A stretch of DNA of 44,054 bases. Source: a virus. Location of the stretch: positions 1 to 44,054 of IMG/VR virus record IMGVR_UViG_3300045739_000107. One strand, written 5' to 3'. Position 1 is the stretch's first letter. Each line of letters starts with the position of its first letter. The position numbers and the translations under genes are program-made. Below, piece after piece: positions 4,773 through 43,768 of this stretch. Below the pieces are notes generated by a model. That model was given only the letters and a program-made list of their open reading frames with translations, made no database searches and had not been told where the DNA came from.

Positions 4773-5018
4773 CTATTCATCGCCCGGCTCCGCCCCACAT
4801 CGCCGACAGTTGCCCCGGCTGTCGAGGCGTCGGCTGCCGCAGTATCGACAGGGTGACTGCCGGGGCCGAGGTCGGCCAACGAACACCGGTGGCGTCGTCG
4901 AGTAGACGACCTTCAGCGCCTCATCGATCGTCTCGATGCGGGCGCCCTTGCGAATCCACACGCTGGTCATCGTTCCATCAGGGCGACGATCCACCTTGCG
5001 AATCCACATGCTGGTCAT
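4773..5018 (-). CDS. Zinc-ribbon protein downstream of Dam methyltransferase
   Basis: The 81-residue frame starts at ATG 5018, overlapping the methyltransferase stop (ATGA). It ends in a zinc ribbon, C-x2-C-x10-C-x2-C (CRYCGSRRLDSRGNCRRCG, residues about 57-75). The N-terminus holds a duplicated octamer, MTSMWIRK at residues 1-8 and MTSVWIRK at 17-24, so the second ATG (4970) is an equally good ancestral start. Function is unknown; a zinc ribbon coupled to a methyltransferase might bind nucleic acid. Confidence 0.6.
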   Translation of the reverse strand: MTSMWIRKVDRRPDGTMTSVWIRKGARIETIDEALKVVYSTTPPVFVGRPRPRQSPCRYCGSRRLDSRGNCRRCGAEPGDE

Positions 5019-5031
5019 CGGTCCATCAGGG
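4946..5031. repeat. Direct repeat spanning a gene junction
   Basis: Two 38-base copies (4946-4983 and 4994-5031), offset by 48 bases with two mismatches. The copy at 4994-5031 covers the end of the methyltransferase and the start codon of the zinc-ribbon gene; the copy at 4946-4983 lies inside the zinc-ribbon gene and contains a second start-like ATG in frame. Confidence 0.8.
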
Positions 5032-5563
5032 TGCAGATCCCGTGCGGAGCGAACGCCTGCCGCACGTGCCGTGGGCTGTTGCCCCAGTAGATCAGGTTCG
5101 TGTCCTGCTTCGCGCCGAGCCCCCCGGCGCCCTCCCACGCAATCCTCCGCCCCCAGAACACGATCGCGTCGGCCTCGCACCATGCCCTCTTCCACCACCG
5201 CGCCGACGTCGCGACGGGGACGGCGAACACGACGTGCGCCGCCGAGTGCTCGTCGGACCACTCCCTCGCCCGCTCCACCCACGGCATGCAGTTCCCGTAG
5301 GGCGGGTTCACGTACGTCAGGCCCCGCGTGCTCCACGGCTCGACGAGGCCATCGCCGAAGACCACGTCGCCCTCGAAGTGCCCAGCGTACTCCGGGAGCC
5401 ACACCCGCCGGACGGCGTCCACCTTCGACCACGGGTTGCTGCACGGGTCGCAGTCGATGCGCCCGTAGAACGCCCCGGCGATGAGCTCGGCGAGCCACAC
5501 CGGCGTGCAGTGGTCCTGCCGGCCCCGCTCGGGGGGGAAGAGTGCGTAGTTCGTGGTGGTCAC
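5015..5563 (-). CDS. Phage Dam-type DNA N6-adenine methyltransferase
   Basis: The 182-residue product matches the compact phage N6-adenine methyltransferase type (DNA_N-6-adenine-MTase, PF05869): an opening 'RQDHCTPVWLAELI', the D-x-D-P-C-S segment (IDCDPCSNPWS, residues 37-46) where the SAM-binding part is expected, and the catalytic NPPY motif (TYVNPPYG, N86-Y89). It would methylate adenine in phage DNA, typically as protection against restriction. It overlaps the repressor by four bases upstream and the zinc-ribbon gene downstream, so it is co-expressed with, and probably controlled by, the Cro-like repressor. Confidence 0.88.
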   Translation of the reverse strand: MTTTNYALFPPERGRQDHCTPVWLAELIAGAFYGRIDCDPCSNPWSKVDAVRRVWLPEYAGHFEGDVVFGDGLVEPWSTRGLTYVNPPYGNCMPWVERAREWSDEHSAAHVVFAVPVATSARWWKRAWCEADAIVFWGRRIAWEGAGGLGAKQDTNLIYWGNSPRHVRQAFAPHGICTLMDR

Positions 5564-34009: not shown

Positions 34010-35038
34010 TCACCCCTTCGACGCAGCCCGGATCGCACGACGCATCATCTCGTCCTCGTCCTGCCAGTACTCTTCCTCTGGCTCGGCGTGCGACGTCTGG
34101 GTCTCGTGGGTGTTCTGAAGTGTCTTGGTGGGGGGTTGTTCTCCCCTGCCAGCTTCGGGGGTCGGGGTTGGCTGCTGCTCTGCGGCGAGCTCGAGGAGCC
34201 TCCGCATGGTCGGGTCGTTGACCACCCGCTTGAGGTCCGCTCGGTACGTGGCTTCCAGCCTGTTGAGGATGTCCGCGGCCTGCGGAACGTCCTCACCGCC
34301 ACTGGCATCATATTGCCGAACGATCTCGTCGAATGCAATCTGGGCCGCCGCTTCGGCGCCCACGGCGCGGATCGTCGGGTAGGCCGGGTCGTCCCCGTCC
34401 ATGCTCCCGATCATGTCGAGGATCCCGCCGTACAGCTCGTTTTCTTCGGCCTCGCGGGCCGCCGCGGCGCTCGATTCCTCGAAGGACTTGATGCGATCGC
34501 GAAGCTCCTGAAGCTCGCGCTGCTGGGCCTCGTTGGGGTCGGGCTTGGAGACCTTCCCCGTCGCGACCTGGTGGTTGAGCATCTCCACCGCGCGGTAGGG
34601 GTCGACCCCCATGATCTTGGCGAAGGTCTCGAGGGGGTTGTCCTTGTTGGGCTCGACGGTCTGCTCGAGTCGGCGCTCCAGGTCGGTCAGTCGCTGCTTC
34701 ATCTCCAGCCGCTCGGTCCGCCAGGCGCTCTCCTTGCGGGCGAGCTCCTCGTGGGCCGTGGCGAGCCGCACGTCGAGCTCGGGGGCCTTCTCTTCCTCGT
34801 CCGGCGGTGGCGGCTCCCCCGCGTCCTGGGGCGGGGCCGCATCGGCCTCCCCGGGCTCGTCGGGCTCCGGCTCTGGCTCCGTGGCAGGGTCCGGCTTCGG
34901 GGCGGGCATGCCCGCCGCCTTGGCCGCCGCGGCGAGCATGGCGTGGTGGTCGAGGAACTCCCCGTCGTCGGTCAGCTCCAGATCCGGCGTCTCTTCTGCT
35001 GCTGCTTCGGCTGTCGTGTCGTTGGCTTCGTCCGTCAT
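34010..35038 (-). CDS. Scaffolding protein, 342 aa
   Basis: The product is highly acidic and proline-rich at the N-terminus (residues 1-90: PDLELTDDGE, EPEPEPDEPGEADAAPPQD), coiled coil in the middle (AHEELARKESAWRTERLEMK, 'RELQELRDRIKSFEESSAAA') and ends with a charged helix (EEYWQDEDEMMRRAIRAASKG). This layout, just before the capsid gene, is typical of phage scaffolding proteins that bind capsid through a C-terminal helix. ATG 35038 forms TGATG with the portal stop; GTG 35041 is the alternative. Confidence 0.85.
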   Translation of the reverse strand: MTDEANDTTAEAAAEETPDLELTDDGEFLDHHAMLAAAAKAAGMPAPKPDPATEPEPEPDEPGEADAAPPQDAGEPPPPDEEEKAPELDVRLATAHEELARKESAWRTERLEMKQRLTDLERRLEQTVEPNKDNPLETFAKIMGVDPYRAVEMLNHQVATGKVSKPDPNEAQQRELQELRDRIKSFEESSAAAAREAEENELYGGILDMIGSMDGDDPAYPTIRAVGAEAAAQIAFDEIVRQYDASGGEDVPQAADILNRLEATYRADLKRVVNDPTMRRLLELAAEQQPTPTPEAGRGEQPPTKTLQNTHETQTSHAEPEEEYWQDEDEMMRRAIRAASKG

Positions 35039-36996
35039 CACAGGACTCCAGGCGCCGCGGGAGGTCCGGCAGCTTCAGGCCCAGGGGGCAACGGCGCTGC
35101 CCCAGGAGCCGCGGGGCCCGGGAGCGGCGTCGGCCCCAGGGCGCCGGGGGCGGGCATCGCCGGGGCGAGGGCCTGGCCTCGCGTGGCGGGCACCCGGCCC
35201 TCGGAGATGTCGAGCAGGCGCTTCGTCGCAACGAGGTACCTGCGCATGAGCTCGAGCCGCGCCTCGGGCACGCGGTCGAGCTTCGCGCGCAAGTACGCCA
35301 TCTGAACGAGTTGCAGCGTGTCCTGCAGGTTCTGGAAAGGCTCGGGGGCGACGAAACGTCCGTGGTCGAGCATCTCCTCGATCGCGTCGAGCACCACCTC
35401 GAAGGACGCGAGCTTGAAGCTCTGGTGCGCCTCGAGGTCCGGGAAGTCGAGCAGGTAGCGCGCCTCCTCCTGGGTGACGAGGCCCGCTCGCATCCACTCC
35501 TGCACCGTTGCCGTCCGGCCCGCGGGCGTCGAGGGCAGCGTCGAGCTCGGGTAGATCTTCATCGCGTAGGAGGCCTCGTCGATGTTGACCTCGCTCCACT
35601 TGATGACCTCGACCCACTTGCGGGAGCGACGCTGGTAGGTGGCCATGACCTGCGGCTCGATGTTCTGCTCGGCCATCATTCGGCTCATGCCGATGATCAC
35701 CTTGGCGCACTGCATGTAGAACGCTTCGTAGGCGAGGGCGGGATCGGCGTGCCGGGTGTCCTCGATGTCGTTCCACTCGCGAAGGGCCGCGCCGGACTCG
35801 AGGTCGGCCGGCTTCTTGTTCTGCGCCGCCATCTGGCTGATGCCCGGGATGTCGTGGCCGTCGCGCTTCAGCTGGTCGAGGTGCTGGAACAGCTGCGGGC
35901 TGATCGGGTTGTGCGTCACGACCTGCGGCGGGACCGAGCCCTCGTACTCGAGGATCCGGCCCATCTCGTTCGTGATGTGCGACTTCACGACGCGCGACGA
36001 GCGATGCACCGCGATCCACGGATTCGCGAAGAGGTGGTAGGCCCGCTGCAGCTTGTCGAGCAGCCGGTTGATCTCGACCTGGATCCCCTGGATGTCCTTG
36101 ATGATGCCCGTGCCCCAGAAGCCGACGACGGGCCGGGTCCAGTGGTACGCGACGATCGGGAACCAGTCGCAGTTCCACTCCTCCTTGAAGAGGGTGCAGT
36201 TGTCGGTGCAGATGACGTGACAGCCGTCCTTTGCGCCTGGGCCCGAGGGCAGGTGCCACGCCTCGACGACGAGCACCTCGTCGGCGATCGTCTCGCCCTC
36301 CCAGTTCTGCGTCGCCGTGAGCGACCCGTCGAGCGCGTTCGCCGCGCTCTTGAGCTTGTCCTCGGTGACGGCGCGACCCCGGGCATCCTTCGGGAACGTC
36401 TCCCGCAGCACCCGGCGGTCAACGTACTTGAGGTGGTACATCTGGCGCGGCTCGCCGTAGCGGCCGTCGTGCCGGTCGACGTACACCTCCCACGGGAACA
36501 CGCGCTCGTTCCACACCTTCCAGCCGTGCGTCGTTTCCCTCGGGAAGAACTTGAGCAGTCCTGTCCCGATGATGGCGCCGTCGCGGAAGGCGGCGCGGCC
36601 CTTCGCGTAGATGTCCGTCTCGTAGAACGAGCCCTCCACATACTTCTCGAGCCGACGCGCCTGCGTCTGCAGCGAGAAGTTGCCGGCGTTCGTGAGGAAC
36701 GTCGCCTTCGGCTTGTTCTTGCCGATGCGCGACACCGCGGTGTCGACGACGGACTTGCACAGGTTGTACTTCAGGTCCGCGTCCCGGACGAGGATGGTCC
36801 CGTCCAGAGCGTAGTCGCTCGGGCCGAGCCCCACGAGGTTGCGGTTTCCGTACAGCCGGAGGTAGTGCAGGATGTGGTCGCGCCGGTTGTCCTCGTCCTC
36901 GTCGATGCGCTGGACAGCCCCGAAGACGGCCCCGTGGGGCTCGTCCTTCATGCGCCACCACCTCAGATCCATGTGGGTGAGCGGGTGGTCGATCAT
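35038..36996 (-). CDS. Portal protein (head-tail connector), 652 aa
   Basis: The 652-residue product lies between the terminase block and the scaffold gene. It has 'DADLKYNLCKSVVDTAVSRIGKNKPKATF' near residue 75-105, 'ETDIYAKGRAAFRDGAIIGTGLLKFF' near 130-155, a wing/stem region 'PIVAYHWTRPVVGFWGTGIIKDIQGIQVEINRLLDKLQ' near 285-320 and a barrel-like helical C-terminus (VVLDAIEEMLDHGRF onward) ending in a proline/glycine-rich tail. These are features of podovirus portals. It forms the dodecameric ring through which DNA is packaged and ejected. ATG overlaps the previous stop. Confidence 0.85.
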   Translation of the reverse strand: MIDHPLTHMDLRWWRMKDEPHGAVFGAVQRIDEDEDNRRDHILHYLRLYGNRNLVGLGPSDYALDGTILVRDADLKYNLCKSVVDTAVSRIGKNKPKATFLTNAGNFSLQTQARRLEKYVEGSFYETDIYAKGRAAFRDGAIIGTGLLKFFPRETTHGWKVWNERVFPWEVYVDRHDGRYGEPRQMYHLKYVDRRVLRETFPKDARGRAVTEDKLKSAANALDGSLTATQNWEGETIADEVLVVEAWHLPSGPGAKDGCHVICTDNCTLFKEEWNCDWFPIVAYHWTRPVVGFWGTGIIKDIQGIQVEINRLLDKLQRAYHLFANPWIAVHRSSRVVKSHITNEMGRILEYEGSVPPQVVTHNPISPQLFQHLDQLKRDGHDIPGISQMAAQNKKPADLESGAALREWNDIEDTRHADPALAYEAFYMQCAKVIIGMSRMMAEQNIEPQVMATYQRRSRKWVEVIKWSEVNIDEASYAMKIYPSSTLPSTPAGRTATVQEWMRAGLVTQEEARYLLDFPDLEAHQSFKLASFEVVLDAIEEMLDHGRFVAPEPFQNLQDTLQLVQMAYLRAKLDRVPEARLELMRRYLVATKRLLDISEGRVPATRGQALAPAMPAPGALGPTPLPGPAAPGAAPLPPGPEAAGPPAAPGVL

Positions 36997-38758: not shown

Positions 38759-38979
38759 CTCTTCTTCTTCGCCTTCCCGGCCGGCGGCTTAGCGGGAGCT
38801 ACGTAGTGGAAGATGCACGACGACTCGTGCACGCGAACGGGTTCGTCGGGGTAGTTGTTGTTCGTGATCAGGACCCAGGGCGGCTCGTGACCAAAGGTGT
38901 ACTGGGTCGCAGAGAAGCGCGTCCCGATAACCCGCACCCCCTGTACCGGGGCCGTCGTCTGCACAGACCTCAGCCGCAC
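38755..38979 (-). CDS. Small basic-tailed protein before terminase, 74 aa
   Basis: Two starts are possible, GTG 38979 (overlapping the previous stop) and GTG 38964; I use the former. The product contains 'VRVIGTRFSATQYTFGHEPPW', 'VLITNNNYPDEPVRVHESSC' and ends with a lysine-rich tail (AKPPAGKAKKKR). Its role is unknown; it is coupled to terL by GTGA. The pattern 'Y-x-F-G-H-x-P-P-W' and its basic tail suggest a small packaging accessory, but with no direct support. Confidence 0.5.
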   Translation of the reverse strand: MRLRSVQTTAPVQGVRVIGTRFSATQYTFGHEPPWVLITNNNYPDEPVRVHESSCIFHYVAPAKPPAGKAKKKR

Positions 38980-39410
38980 TGCGCCACCGGCGGGTAGAAG
39001 GCGTGCCCTGGGGAGTACTCGAGCTGCGGCTGCAGCTGCTCGTTCAACCGGCGCCACTGCCACGTGTCGTGGCTCGCCCACCGCAGCCCGACGCGACGGT
39101 GCGCTTCGCGCACGAGGGCCGTGCCGACGGAGCACCGCCGGTGGTCGCGCTTCACGTAGACGTAGTGAAGGACCTCGGGCTCGAACACGACGAACCCGAG
39201 TTGCTCCTGTGGCACGTCGGCGAAGTTGCACACGAGCACCGTGGAGCGCTCGACCAGCGCTTCGACGACCTGCCGGTGCGCCGGGTAGAGGCGACGCCGA
39301 TCAACGCGCCGGAAGGGGCCGGCGCGGCCCTTCGCGTACGACTTCATCCACGATCGGAAGACGAAGGGGGTGTGGTCCTCCGGGTTCCACGGATGGACCA
39401 CGACCCCCAC
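38970..39410 (-). CDS. GNAT-type N-acetyltransferase, 146 aa
   Basis: The product shows the GNAT core: strand 'VLVCNFADVPQEQLGFVVFEPE', strand 'VLHYVYVKRDHRRCSVGTALVREAHRR' where the R-x-x-x-x-G-T/A acetyl-CoA loop (DHRRCSVGTAL) is present. It lies just before the terminase genes, where GNAT-like proteins occur in some podoviruses as virion or packaging-associated proteins. The start GTG 39410 has GGAGGAG at a suitable distance; a longer frame to 39488 would run through the previous gene. Substrate unknown. Confidence 0.75.
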   Translation of the reverse strand: MGVVVHPWNPEDHTPFVFRSWMKSYAKGRAGPFRRVDRRRLYPAHRQVVEALVERSTVLVCNFADVPQEQLGFVVFEPEVLHYVYVKRDHRRCSVGTALVREAHRRVGLRWASHDTWQWRRLNEQLQPQLEYSPGHAFYPPVAQCG

Positions 39411-39411
39411 G

Positions 39412-40086
39412 TCACTCCTCCCCGCCCCCGGCGACAGCCTCCATGAGGGAGACGTAGTCGGCCGGGTGGACGAGAGCCGGCGGCGCATCGATCAGGTCAC
39501 CGGCGCGGCCAAGCGACAGGCGATAGGGGTTGTCCTCACGGACCCGGCGCCGCTGCTCCTGCACCAGGCGATCGATCTCGAACACGTCCTGCTGAAGCTC
39601 CTGGAGCACGTAGGCCATGCCAGGCGCCACGAGCGGGTCGGGCCTGAGCTCGAAGTTGCCCCACGGAGACCGCAGAACCACGGGGGACGGCTCCACCGCC
39701 TTGCCGTTGACCTCGGTCTTGCCCGAGAACGCGTCGTGCGACAGGTACAGCTTGCCCGAGAACGCGTCGTGCGACAGGTACATCTTGCCCGTCGGGCCGC
39801 CGTCGACCTCCACGTACTTCTTGGCCGCGGGCCGCGGACGCGCCCGAAGCGCGGCGATGGCGTGCTCGCGCGTGGGCCCCGTGGCCTCGCCGTGCTCGGG
39901 GTGCTTCGCGAGGAAGAACGGCTCGGGGTAGTCCGAGCTCATGCAGGCCTCGACCACGAGATCCGCCTCGAACGGGCGGAATCGCTCGCCGTCGTGTCCG
40001 CAGCGCTCGCACTCCTGCGACGTGAACCCGTGATAGGCCGGGCCACCGCACCAGGAGCACACGCCGTTGTAGACCACGACCGTCAT
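39412..40086 (-). CDS. Zinc-ribbon protein with tandem YLSHDAFSGK repeat, 224 aa
   Basis: ATG 40086 is chosen as it overlaps the stop of the upstream membrane peptide. The N-terminus has C-x2-C (CSWCGG) and C-x2-C (CERCGHDG), a zinc ribbon of residues 10-31. Around residues 97-123 the peptide YLSHDAFSGK occurs twice in tandem, encoded by a 33-bp duplication. The C-terminal half is helical (MAYVLQELQQDVFEIDRLVQEQRR). Function unknown; it is the second gene of the late operon and may be an early-late control or head protein. Confidence 0.6.
   Translation of the reverse strand: MTVVVYNGVCSWCGGPAYHGFTSQECERCGHDGERFRPFEADLVVEACMSSDYPEPFFLAKHPEHGEATGPTREHAIAALRARPRPAAKKYVEVDGGPTGKMYLSHDAFSGKLYLSHDAFSGKTEVNGKAVEPSPVVLRSPWGNFELRPDPLVAPGMAYVLQELQQDVFEIDRLVQEQRRRVREDNPYRLSLGRAGDLIDAPPALVHPADYVSLMEAVAGGGEE
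39721..39786. repeat. 33-bp perfect-type tandem duplication
   Basis: Two adjacent 33-base copies (39721-39753 and 39754-39786) differ at only one position and encode an 11-residue repeat in the zinc-ribbon protein. In-frame tandem duplications suggest recent slippage or recombination within this gene. Confidence 0.85.
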
Positions 40087-40238: not shown

Positions 40239-40263
40239 TAGGCCGATCGGGGCCCTCAGTCCA
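40235..40263 (-). promoter_or_regulatory. Candidate late promoter
   Basis: On the minus strand TGGACT (40263-40258) and TATAGT (40240-40235) are separated by 17 bases. The -10 box matches at five of six positions, the -35 at four. A second TATAGT lies at 40226-40221. Transcription would start near 40228-40214, just before the membrane peptide gene at 40196, and would feed the 26-kb late operon. Confidence 0.4.
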
Positions 40264-40552
40264 CCACAACGGCGACGATGTCCTCGAGGGCGAGGTTTCG
40301 GAGCTCGGTTCCGTCGTTCTCCCAGCAAATCTCGCCGTAGGTGCGCTTGAAGAGCACTTTTTGGCCCTCGGCGAGGTCTGGAGGCACGATCACGCCCTTC
40401 TGGGTCTCGTAACCGCGCCCCACCGACCGCACGAAGCCCTCCATCGTCTGATGGCGCGCCCTGGCGGTCTGGGGCTTGATGATCCCCCCCGGAGTAGCCT
40501 CTGGCTCGGGGATCGGCTCGACGAGGACTCGGTTTCCGAAGGCTTTCAGCAT
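40256..40552 (-). CDS. groES: GroES-like co-chaperonin
   Basis: The 98-residue product has the Cpn10 pattern throughout: 'FGNRVLVEPIPEPE', the mobile-loop segment ATPGGIIKPQTA (residues about 19-30), 'EGFVRSVGRGYETQKGVIVPP', 'AEGQKVLFKRTYGEI' and the final strand 'LRNLALEDIVAVVV'. In GroES the loop's hydrophobic tripeptide (GI-V-L) contacts GroEL; here it is G-I-I-K, so the third position is charged. Phage GroES analogues (T4 gp31 type) help host GroEL fold the large capsid protein. No GroEL gene was seen. It has no good ribosome site immediately upstream; the nearest purine run is far. Confidence 0.88.
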   Translation of the reverse strand: MLKAFGNRVLVEPIPEPEATPGGIIKPQTARARHQTMEGFVRSVGRGYETQKGVIVPPDLAEGQKVLFKRTYGEICWENDGTELRNLALEDIVAVVVD

Positions 40553-40637: not shown

Positions 40638-40799
40638 TCACCTCCGCGAGCGCTTCAAGCCCGCTGCCTCGGCGAGCGACCTCGAGCTTCCGTCCAGCGC
40701 CTTCGAGATCCGCTTCGCGAGCGCCTTGAGGCGCGTTTCCTCGGCCCGTTTGCGCGCCTTGAACGCTCGCCGCGCCTTTTCAGCGGCCTTTTTGGCCAT
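40638..40799 (-). CDS. Small very basic protein, 53 aa
   Basis: The frame starts at ATG 40799, overlapping the previous stop (TGATG). The sequence is almost entirely helix-forming and basic: MAKKAAEKARRAFKARKR, 'AEETRLKALAKRISKALDGS', then SLAEAAGLKRSRR. Such a composition suggests nucleic-acid binding or a virion-DNA protein. It is the last gene before an 85-base gap and the GroES-like gene. No family recognised. Confidence 0.55.
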   Translation of the reverse strand: MAKKAAEKARRAFKARKRAEETRLKALAKRISKALDGSSRSLAEAAGLKRSRR

Positions 40800-41185
40800 C
40801 AGCCGCCCCTCCCGCGCCGCCGCTTGCCCGGCAGCGCATCGGAGAGCCGCCGATCCCGGCTGGGCCGCGACTGGGCCTCGACCATGCGCCGGTCGTGCCG
40901 GGTGAGCGGCTCCTCGGTGGTTGGCCTGGCCATGGTGCGCGAGCGCTCAGCCTCCCGCGCCGCAGCAGGACTCGGCCCCGGGGTCGCCGCGACCACCCGG
41001 GGGCCGCGATCGTCGTAGTCGCCGGGGCGCGACCTTCGCGCCAGCACGCGCTGCGGCACCGGCCCGCTCGGCAGCCGCGTGCGGACGGCGCGCTCCTCCT
41101 TCTCCACGCTCCACTTCCTGCCCTGCACCGTCCCCGCGGTCTTCCACCTCGACGGCACACCGTATCGACCAGGGGCCTTCGGCAT
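40799..41185 (-). CDS. Basic disordered protein with RRLSDAL motif, 128 aa
   Basis: The product is basic and mostly unstructured (MPKAPGRYGVPSRWKTAGTV, proline/arginine/alanine-rich centre) with a C-terminal 'SRPSRDRRLSDALPGKRRRGRGG'. The RRLSDAL core recurs in three neighbouring genes (NRLIDAL, RRLQDAL, RRLIEAL). The ATG overlaps the previous stop (TGATG). A role in DNA binding or virion assembly is inferred from composition only. Confidence 0.55.
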   Translation of the reverse strand: MPKAPGRYGVPSRWKTAGTVQGRKWSVEKEERAVRTRLPSGPVPQRVLARRSRPGDYDDRGPRVVAATPGPSPAAAREAERSRTMARPTTEEPLTRHDRRMVEAQSRPSRDRRLSDALPGKRRRGRGG

Positions 41186-41388
41186 CAGATCCCTCTCCGG
41201 TTGCGGCGGTTGCCGCGCAGTTGGGCGGCGTCCTCGGGCGTGATCGACCCGCGGCCGCCCGACAGCGCATCGATCAGACGGTTGCGCCGGCGACGCGGCG
41301 GCGCCCCAGCGTCCGAGCTCGACCGCAGGTCGCGCCGGATCTGCAGCTGCTCGGGGGTCGCCCGCTTCGGCCGCCGGGTGTCAGCCAT
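41185..41388 (-). CDS. Small basic protein with NRLIDAL motif, 67 aa
   Basis: The product (MADTRRPKRATPEQLQIRRDL) contains 'RRRRNRLIDALSGGRGS' near residues 32-48 and ends in 'RGNRRNRRGI'. It shares the [RN]RL-x-[DE]-AL motif with its neighbours. The ATG is at TGATG with the previous gene's stop. It may be a tandem paralogue of the neighbouring basic genes. Function unknown. Confidence 0.55.
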   Translation of the reverse strand: MADTRRPKRATPEQLQIRRDLRSSSDAGAPPRRRRNRLIDALSGGRGSITPEDAAQLRGNRRNRRGI

Positions 41389-41540
41389 CAGCGGCCCCGG
41401 CGCCTGCGCTCCTGGGCGGCCAGCACGCGGCGACGTTCCTGCTCGCTCACCTGGCGGCCGGATCCCTCGAACGTCCGACGCATCAGCGCATCCTGGAGGC
41501 GCCGCCGGCGCTTCTTCTTGTTGTTCGCGGGATCAGGCAC
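41388..41540 (-). CDS. 50-aa basic protein with RRLQDAL motif
   Basis: The GTG at 41540 has AAGGAGA about six bases upstream and overlaps the previous gene by eight bases. The product MPDPANNKKKRRRRLQDALM continues to 'RRTFEGSGRQVSEQERRRVL' and ends in AAQERRRRGR. It combines the RRLQDAL motif of its neighbours with the EQERRR motif found in two virion proteins. It is too short for domain assignment; very basic, so likely nucleic-acid associated. Confidence 0.5.
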   Translation of the reverse strand: MPDPANNKKKRRRRLQDALMRRTFEGSGRQVSEQERRRVLAAQERRRRGR

Positions 41541-41727
41541 TGGGAGTCTCCTTCTTCGGCTTCTTCGCCGTCTTCTTCTTCGCCGGCTTCGGCTCGGCGG
41601 GCTCGGGGGCGGGCGGCGTGTACGCCTTCGCCTTCGCGAGCTCCGCCCTGAGGGCCTCGTTCTCCTGCTCGAGCCGAGCGATCTTCGCGCAGCTGAAGCA
41701 GACGGGGGATCCGCACGTGCAGCTCAT
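41533..41727 (-). CDS. Small zinc-finger plus coiled-coil protein, 64 aa
   Basis: The product MSCTCGSPVCFSCAKIARLE has four cysteines (C3, C5, C10, C13) that can bind one zinc, followed by a heptad stretch (ARLEQENEALRAELAKAKA) and a proline/lysine-rich tail (PAKKKTAKKPKKETPSA). ATG 41727 is preferred; an in-frame ATG at 41745 lies upstream. TATGGT at 41754-41749 (minus strand) is a possible -10 box. It heads the leftward run of basic genes. Confidence 0.55.
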   Translation of the reverse strand: MSCTCGSPVCFSCAKIARLEQENEALRAELAKAKAYTPPAPEPAEPKPAKKKTAKKPKKETPSA

Positions 41728-41800
41728 GGTCGGACCATACCCCATCTCACCATAGGCATCGACCCCCCCGCCTGATGTGTGCACGCTGGAGGGCCGACGT

Positions 41801-41829
41801 CCCGTTGCGAGCCCCCGTCGGGCAACGGG
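41801..41829. other. Perfect inverted repeat in divergent intergenic region
   Basis: CCCGTTGC (41801-41808) and GCAACGGG (41822-41829) form an 8-bp perfect stem with a 13-base loop. It lies between the divergent genes 41533-41727 and 41945-42304. It may be a binding site for a regulator or an RNA structure; there is no T-run. The region 41728-41944 otherwise holds only weak promoter-like boxes. Confidence 0.4.
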
Positions 41830-41944
41830 GTCCTATGCTCGAAATCCGGGGGAGGTTGCCACGACCCACGGCTCGAGGTGCTCGCCCCAAATGTGCCCCC
41901 GCGTCACCTCGACGTCAACCGGCCCCGCATGATAGTGTCCGGCC

Positions 41945-42304
41945 ATGGCAGATCGTTGGCCCGAGCGCCCCCGGCACACCTCCGCGCGGCTGAAGGACAT
42001 CGGGGTGCCCGGCGCACCCAAACGCCGCGGGAAGCGGGCTCGGCCCCGGCGGCTCATCGAGGCCCTCGATCGCCCAGGCATCGTCGCGCAGGACCGGCGG
42101 CAGGCCGGTAACTGGGACCGCTTCACGGAGGCGAAGCGCTCCTACCGGGGCCTGCCCGCGTCGCCGCCGAGCGTCTCGCAGAAAAAGGGCGGCCGCCCCA
42201 AACAGCAAGCGCCTCGACCAGAGACGCTGCGCGACAGGGAACGCAAGTCCGAGGACGTGGCCGCCAGGCGCGAGGACGAGCGTCGCCGGCGCTTCCCGAA
42301 GTAA
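41945..42304 (+). CDS. Basic protein with RRLIEAL motif, 119 aa
   Basis: The product is very basic (MADRWPERPRHTSARLKDIG, 'KRRGKRARPRRLIEALDRPG', 'SQKKGGRPKQQAPRPETLRD') with no visible fold. It shares the RRLIEAL motif with the three basic genes on the other strand. A GATAGT box at 41931-41936 would put the transcription start near the ATG, suggesting a leaderless or very short leader; the -35 is weak. Function unknown. Confidence 0.55.
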   Translation: MADRWPERPRHTSARLKDIGVPGAPKRRGKRARPRRLIEALDRPGIVAQDRRQAGNWDRFTEAKRSYRGLPASPPSVSQKKGGRPKQQAPRPETLRDRERKSEDVAARREDERRRRFPK

Positions 42305-42577: not shown

Positions 42578-42982
42578 GTGGCAATCTCGCACGAAGACTT
42601 CATGCGCTACCTCGACGCGGTCACCGCCGACTGGATCGAGTACAACGGCCACCGCTTCCACGGCCGGATCCCGCAGATCTTCTTCCGAGAGGTCCACGAC
42701 GCCGACGCCCTCGAGGTGAGACTCGTCCTCGAGCCCGTGCCGGGCTGCACCCCCTTCAAGTCCAACCCCCCCGGACACCCCCCACACATGGTCGGGCCCG
42801 CCGACACCCTCACCGTCAACAAACGCATCGACGGCGAGGTCTTCGCCGTCTACCAGAGGCGCTGGAAGCACGGCCACCACGGGCTCACGGTCCTCCTACG
42901 CGCCACGTACGAAGAGCTCGCCAGCGCCGCCGGCGCCACGACCAGCAAACCCCACCCCCTCTTCCACCACCTCGGCCCGTGA
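42578..42982 (+). CDS. Hypothetical protein, 134 aa
   Basis: The GTG at 42578 follows GGAGG at a rather long distance; the next in-frame ATG at 42602 is an alternative. The product MAISHEDFMRYLDAVTADWI has aromatic, strand-rich content (YNGHRFHGRIPQIFFREVHD, 'ALEVRLVLEPVPGCTPFK') and a His-rich part (YQRRWKHGHHGLTVLL). I do not recognise it. It overlaps the next gene by GTGA. Confidence 0.5.
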   Translation: MAISHEDFMRYLDAVTADWIEYNGHRFHGRIPQIFFREVHDADALEVRLVLEPVPGCTPFKSNPPGHPPHMVGPADTLTVNKRIDGEVFAVYQRRWKHGHHGLTVLLRATYEELASAAGATTSKPHPLFHHLGP

Positions 42983-43275
42983 CCAAAGACCGCTGGCTCG
43001 ACGACTCCAAGCTCACCCTCCAGTCCATGACCGAGGCCCTCAAGGCCCTCTACCGGCCCGCCCGCGTCAACCTGCCCAAGGGCCAGTTCGCCTGCAGCGT
43101 CACCGGCAAGGCGCGAACCCTCGACTACGCCGACACCGGAACAACCCTCGACTACGCCGACACCGGAACCTGGGCCTGCTCCGAGTGCGGAGCCGAGCTC
43201 GACGGAACCGCGCTCGGGCCCAGGCCCCAGCCATGCCGCGAGCCCGACGACTGGGACCCGGACCTCTACCTGTGA
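42979..43275 (+). CDS. Zinc-finger-like protein with tandem repeat, 98 aa
   Basis: The GTG overlaps the previous TGA (GTGA). The product has C-x-V-T-G (FACSVTG, near residue 40) and C-x2-C (WACSECGAEL, near residue 72), consistent with one zinc site, separated by a tandem nonapeptide TLDYADTGT twice, encoded by a 27-bp duplication at 43116-43169. The insertion lengthens the loop between the two half-sites. Function unknown. Confidence 0.5.
   Translation: MTKDRWLDDSKLTLQSMTEALKALYRPARVNLPKGQFACSVTGKARTLDYADTGTTLDYADTGTWACSECGAELDGTALGPRPQPCREPDDWDPDLYL
43116..43169. repeat. 27-bp tandem duplication
   Basis: Two 27-base copies (43116-43142 and 43143-43169), nearly identical, encode TLDYADTGT twice inside the zinc-finger-like protein. 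The in-frame duplication looks recent. Confidence 0.85.
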
Positions 43276-43475
43276 CCACCATCCGCGAAGGCCTCACCTA
43301 CTCCAACGCCAACGGACACTGGCTCCGCATCGACTTCATCGAGAAAGGCTGGGTCCACTTCGTCTCCGGGACCCGCGCCTCCGAGACCGGAGACCGCGGC
43401 AAGATGAAGCTCAAAACCTTCCGCCAGGCCCTCCGCCGCCACGGACTCCGGCTCGGAATGCCGAGGCCCACATGA
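43272..43475 (+). CDS. Hypothetical protein, 67 aa
   Basis: The GTG overlaps the previous stop (GTGA). The product MTTIREGLTYSNANGHWLRI continues with strands (DFIEKGWVHFVSGTRA) and a short helix (LKTFRQALRRHGLRLG). The pattern resembles small phage proteins of an SH3-like or OB-like size, without a recognised family. It overlaps the next gene by ATGA. Confidence 0.5.
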   Translation: MTTIREGLTYSNANGHWLRIDFIEKGWVHFVSGTRASETGDRGKMKLKTFRQALRRHGLRLGMPRPT

Positions 43476-43768
43476 AACGCCCCCGAAAGCCACCCCGCGC
43501 CTTCGCCGAGGCCCTCCACGCCAAGCTCGCCGAGCTCCGCGAGCACTCCTTCAAACGCCTCCTCGAGTCGGGCATGACCCCAGAGGTCGCCACCCAGATC
43601 TGCTACCCAGACCCCGACCCCCACGAGGACCGCTCCAAGTTCCCCGTCATCCTCCGGCCCTGCCCCTACTGCAACGGCTCCGGCGAAGCCTACGACCCCC
43701 AGACCAACGAGGGGCCCACATGCCCCTCATGCTCCGGCACCGGAGAGGACCCAAAGGGGCCCAGGTAG
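43472..43768 (+). CDS. DnaJ-type zinc-finger protein, 98 aa
   Basis: The C-terminal part has two CxxCxGxG motifs: CPYCNGSG (near residue 63) and CPSCSGTG (near 86), the signature of the DnaJ-type cysteine-rich domain, here one zinc site rather than the usual two. The N-terminal part is basic and helical (MKRPRKPPRAFAEALHAKL, 'ELREHSFKRLLESGMTP'). There is no J-domain, so it is not a DnaJ. It may act as a small zinc-dependent adaptor. It starts at ATG overlapping the previous gene (ATGA). Confidence 0.65.
   Translation: MKRPRKPPRAFAEALHAKLAELREHSFKRLLESGMTPEVATQICYPDPDPHEDRSKFPVILRPCPYCNGSGEAYDPQTNEGPTCPSCSGTGEDPKGPR

Follow-up and report, generated by a model that had tools for sequence, protein, structure and literature searches.

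Small Basic Proteins With a Common Short Motif Upstream of the Terminase Region of an Uncultured Phage

Introduction

Why do four neighbouring genes of one phage, whose very basic products differ over most of their length, carry nearly the same seven-residue word? The first-pass annotation of this locus reported RRLSDAL, NRLIDAL, RRLQDAL and RRLIEAL in four open reading frames and proposed a family of small proteins built around one short motif, perhaps a helix that docks on a common partner such as capsid, portal or polymerase. Here, we follow up this proposal in the window, a complete IMG/VR virus record of 44,054 bases that is classed as linear (without end repeats) and has a GC content of 70% across its length. 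The cluster is a real, non-random and lineage-specific set of small orphan basic proteins, which are probably local paralogs and whose function can be drawn only in outline.

Genome Context and Genes of the Cluster

By its predicted proteins, the window stems from a phage that has not been cultured and whose head module is podovirus-like. The leftward genes encode TerL, a portal that matches the T7-type head-tail adaptor family phrog_332, an acidic scaffold candidate, MCP and an internal virion protein, and the left end of the window has the rightward recombination genes YqaJ and RecT. The protein in the scaffold position (34010-35041, minus strand) has a net charge of -43 and no family match, and would be an obvious candidate as partner of the basic proteins. 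The left contig end (1-82) consists of a 12-nt tandem array of about seven copies (GAGGTCTCCGAC), and at 4946-5040 a 48-nt unit occurs twice (89%), overlapping the end of a Dam-like methyltransferase gene (5015-5563). The cluster comprises the following genes and motifs.

40638..40799, minus strand: gene E, open reading frame and gene call, 53 aa, net charge +14
Residues 30-37 of E, minus strand: motif-like word RISKALDG
40799..41185, minus strand: gene A, 128 aa, net charge +18, RRLSDAL near the C-terminus
40832..40852, minus strand: motif in A, RRLSDAL, spelled CGG CGG CTC TCC GAT GCG CTG
41185..41388, minus strand: gene B, 67 aa, net charge +11, NRLIDAL
41263..41283, minus strand: motif in B, NRLIDAL, spelled AAC CGT CTG ATC GAT GCG CTG
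41388..41540, minus strand: gene C, 50 aa, GTG start, net charge +12, KKKRRRRLQDAL near the N-terminus
41484..41504, minus strand: motif in C, RRLQDAL, spelled CGG CGC CTC CAG GAT GCG CTG
41533..41745, minus strand: gene F, 70-83 aa (start uncertain), first of the leftward run, overlapping the start of C; Cys cluster, short coiled-coil-like stretch and basic tail, without the motif
41945..42304, plus strand: gene D, 119 aa, net charge +20, RRLIEAL, first of the divergent rightward run
42047..42067, plus strand: motif in D, RRLIEAL, spelled CGG CGG CTC ATC GAG GCC CTC

The four open reading frames and their motifs lie where they were first annotated, with A, B and C leftward and D on the opposite strand, and their net charges bear out the description as very basic. 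Their codon usage is coding-like (GC3 0.84-0.89), and all four were chosen by a codon-usage gene caller. The first motif residue is at about position 112 in A, 36 in B, 13 in C and 35 in D, in chains of 128, 67, 50 and 119 aa, respectively. No convincing match for the cluster proteins was found in Pfam, PHROGs, NCBIfam or PDB sequences.

The leftward run is ordered F, C, B, A, E, followed by GroES, the gene 39412-40086, the GNAT gene, TerL and portal. The overlap is exactly 1 nt at C-B, B-A and A-E but 8 nt at F-C, an arrangement that looks as in a translationally coupled operon. D opens the divergent rightward run at 41945, and because the cluster genes flank the divergent region (41784-41945), both operons begin with members of the cluster. 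If the genome is circularly permuted, the rightward run probably continues into the recombination region. A small protein encoded at 43472-43768 (plus strand) has a CxxCxGxG-type zinc motif and a weak Anti-TRAP/DnaJ match below curated cut-offs.

The GroES-like co-chaperonin (40256-40552, minus strand; PF00166, E-value 1.8e-15) belongs to the packaging run and lies just upstream of the GNAT gene and TerL. Two phages with related portals, L060 and L061, carry a second GroES-like gene (L060:6790-7212) between TerS and GNAT-TerL. The divergence between this gene and the window GroES is too great for a BLAST match, and the slot upstream of GNAT-TerL may therefore have received GroES more than once. 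The GNAT-like gene itself (38970-39410, minus strand) immediately precedes TerL; 45 portal-relative loci have a match to it, and it appears from these sequences to be an unusually constant terminase partner among the portal relatives.

Frequency of the Motif

Translated in all six frames, the 44 kb window has RLx[DE]AL at five sites, four of which are those of A, B, C and D, and the broader pattern [RKN]R[LIVM]x[DE]AL also gives five six-frame sites with four in A-D. The fifth site (42844-42864, plus strand) is out of frame with the called gene 42578-42982, and the sense proteome of the window outside A-D lacks the motif. In other high-GC phage DNA (Mx8, phiC31 and L060), RLx[DE]AL turns up about 1-2 times in 100,000 six-frame codons, and none of the annotated Mx8 proteins has R[LI]x[DE]AL. 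For a single cluster gene, the probability of RLx[DE]AL is about 0.0004-0.001 when composition is shuffled and 0.002-0.01 when dipeptides are preserved.

A de novo test, designed to allow for the post-hoc choice of the motif, compared every word of 5 to 7 residues in which at least five positions are fixed, across the six window genes with at least 25% Lys+Arg. The test was probability-weighted, as a simple count-based version is dominated by Ala or Arg runs. RLxDAL is the top shared word among these six most basic genes, and its score is reached by 0 of 1000 composition shuffles with exact letters and 1 of 1000 with a reduced alphabet; dipeptide-preserving shuffles give the same counts (0/1000 and 1/1000). 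Because so few shuffles reach this score, arginine-rich composition is an insufficient explanation for the shared motif, and codon bias or arginine-rich low complexity, named in the first-pass annotation as a possible source of the pattern, does not account for it. The proposal of a family of small proteins built around one short motif is supported.

The Motif as a Putative Helix

The cluster proteins are poor in hydrophobic residues (V, I, L, M, F, W or C make up only 14-16%). For E, B and D, the motif is the most amphipathic of all 11-mers of the protein; in C it is second, and in A it ranks 13th among 118. AlphaFold2 without an alignment places the motif in a helix in B (31-42, the second of three short helices) and D (35-42), which is weak evidence because the pLDDT is about 55-60; a fold search with the B model gave nothing significant. 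Ranks and models together agree with the earlier suggestion that the motif forms a helix. This amphipathic helix would be the main hydrophobic patch in the otherwise hydrophobic-poor chains, with the Arg-rich flanks binding nucleic acid and the L/I-A-L face packing against another protein, be it itself, a sibling or one common partner. The helix would then dock or self-associate while the chains bind nucleic acid.

Probable Relatedness of the Cluster Genes

The description of the four proteins as otherwise dissimilar is slightly too strong. Local protein alignments of B-D, B-C and A-B, motif included, have scores that are reached by 16-20 of 500 shuffles; A-D and C-D are not significant in the same test. 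Similarity beyond about 20 nt is weak among the cluster genes, and a naive MAFFT alignment of the five proteins did not line up the motif and was not used. At the DNA level, when pairs of in-frame 21-nt stretches are ranked by their match, the motif register comes first for A and B (rank 1 of 7442), A and C (1 of 5368), A and E (1 of 5734) and A and D (1 of 13786), a ranking that partly restates the peptide identity. With RISKALDG in the same register, E is probably a fifth, more divergent member; since E was picked by eye before the ranking was made, its rank supports this assignment and does not prove it.

The codons add to this picture. D-A-L is spelled GAT GCG CTG in A, B and C, and GAT makes up 13% of the Asp codons in the window and 26% of those in the cluster genes outside the motif. 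With local codon usage, the chance that A, B and C agree on a triplet this uncommon is about 8e-4, and the chance of any identical triplet across the three is 0.014. The basic-L residues upstream of DAL are common to the genes as peptide, not as codons, and DNA repeats of equal quality arise by chance in the cluster region. LI[DE]AL is common to B and D, but its synonymous codons differ. To judge from these sequences, local duplication fits A, B, C and E, whereas the relation of D to them would be older or convergent.

Our preferred reading, held tentatively and at somewhat short of an even chance, is that A-E are lineage-specific basic proteins of which at least A, B, C and E are local duplicates that diverged fast and kept the amphipathic helix. 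One small ancestral gene would have given rise to A, B, C and E through local duplication and very fast divergence, through which only a short amphipathic helix, basic-[LI]-x-[DE/K]-A-L, was kept. In its favour, A, B, C and E follow one another with overlaps of 1 nt, and the same genome contains other recent short tandem duplications; against it, the motif is C-terminal in A, central in B and N-terminal in C. The likeliest reason for the shared helix would be that these proteins are fast-diverging copies of each other.

Two tandem duplications lie inside coding genes, at 39718-39791 (33 nt, 2.2 copies, 97%) and 43116-43169 (27 nt, two copies, 100%), where they repeat the peptides LYLSHDAFSGK and TLDYADTGT.

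Homologues and Portal Relatives

The comparison set consists of 80 IMG/VR loci with portals 35-42% identical to that of the window, 76 of which also match its TerL. In none of the 80 does a sense ORF carry the motif, and none has a match to A-F. A peptide-pattern scan of IMG/VR with A, B, D and GroES found no homologue, nor did tblastn of phage records with B and D (E-values of 1 or worse) or with the portal; tblastn among phage-collection isolates likewise gave none with a related portal. A portal alignment against GTDB genomes found one relative (L082), in which the motif is absent. The first-pass annotation had suggested a motif search across related phages, and its idea of a capsid, portal or polymerase partner is not supported by the outcome. 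Because the 80 portal relatives have neither the genes nor the motif, a conserved head-module partner does not accompany the motif, and a partner peculiar to this lineage is possible. A purely late, capsid-only partner would also fit D badly, since the opposite operon begins with D.

In the relatives inspected, the slot upstream of GNAT-TerL holds TerS or a protein in the TerS position, and in the window A-F are found there. A-F thus fill the same slot as the terminase small subunits and TerS-position proteins of L003, L033, L053, L059, L060, L063 and L080, but A, B, C and 39412-40086 have no profile similarity to the six TerS-position proteins compared. Stretches that look alike raised the idea that A, B and C are TerS remnants, which was ruled out by hhalign (probability <1% for A, B, C and 39412-40086 against six TerS-position proteins of relatives). 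PHROGs gave no TerS match among the window proteins, and TerS profiles gave none for the cluster proteins.

Alternative Explanations and Comparison With Known Systems

The simplest alternative is coincidence, in which small helical proteins rich in Arg, Leu, Ala and Asp, encoded by a 70% GC genome, arrive at the same common helical word. Every residue of the motif is one of those used most often in the region, R[LI]..AL by itself is not unusual in proteins of this kind (0.002-0.024 per gene), and the set comes from one genome and was noticed after the fact. The near failure of all shuffles, dipeptide-preserving ones included, to match the best shared word speaks against it, as do the absence of the motif from the remaining sense proteome and its rarity in Mx8, phiC31 and the relatives; as the shuffle null ignores that real proteins contain helices, we regard coincidence as unlikely and still worth keeping in view. 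It is highly improbable that the common element is instead a repeated DNA or RNA site (CAGCGCATC, three copies), for example a packaging or binding site near the terminase, that is read as DAL by chance. The sequence GATGCGCTG does occur five times in the window, on both strands, with three of the five at the motifs of A, B and C, but all three copies are in the coding frame of their own gene, the upstream basic-L residues agree as peptide rather than as codons, and B and D encode LI[DE]AL with different codons.

Other explanations assign the motif a function of its own. Lambdoid N-type antiterminators are small disordered phage proteins, encoded near an operon start, that have a short arginine-rich helix. 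The RRRRLxDAL helix may similarly bind nucleic acid itself, so that the motif reflects a shared RNA or DNA target; this is rather unlikely, as is the example that the target serves the regulation of the two divergent operons. A basic run directly before LxDAL in B, C and D and the position of the genes around 41784-41945, at the start of both operons, fit such a role, but the D-A-L residues are not on the basic face and no sigma-70-like promoter was found in the divergent region. The cluster proteins resemble the N-type in the short arginine-rich helix of a small protein near an operon start and differ in that several copies are encoded together and the hydrophobic L-A-L face, not the basic face, is conserved; no sequence relation between the two was found. 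The only precedent found in the literature is that of the T4 internal proteins IPI, IPII and IPIII, diverse basic proteins that have only a capsid targeting sequence in common, which is N-terminal and cleaved by gp21 (PMC3012670, PMC9026906). Here, too, several small, basic and divergent products of fast-evolving accessory genes share one short sequence, and a prohead address in this style, by which basic cargo docks on the scaffold core, is packaged and is then injected, would suit the strongly acidic scaffold candidate and a cluster that directly precedes GroES, TerL, portal, scaffold and MCP in their common leftward run. We nevertheless consider it improbable: the place of the motif ranges from the N-terminal to the C-terminal part of the chain, a scan of head-region proteins gave no maturation protease, D belongs to the opposite operon and the motif is missing from relatives that have this head module. 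Because the motif sits at no fixed end and no protease was identified, membership in the T4 type is not claimed. A reusable internal docking helix that works at any chain position and takes fast-changing basic proteins to a common partner would be capsid-targeting-like, dispense with a cleaved N-terminal tag and serve proteins from both divergent operons; we consider this quite improbable.

Implications

If the helix serves for docking, a single partner would account for five unknown genes together, and the motif would provide a simple handle on the function of small orphan basic phage proteins. If the cluster is only a burst of local duplication, it would be a compact example of new small phage genes arising beside the terminase region.
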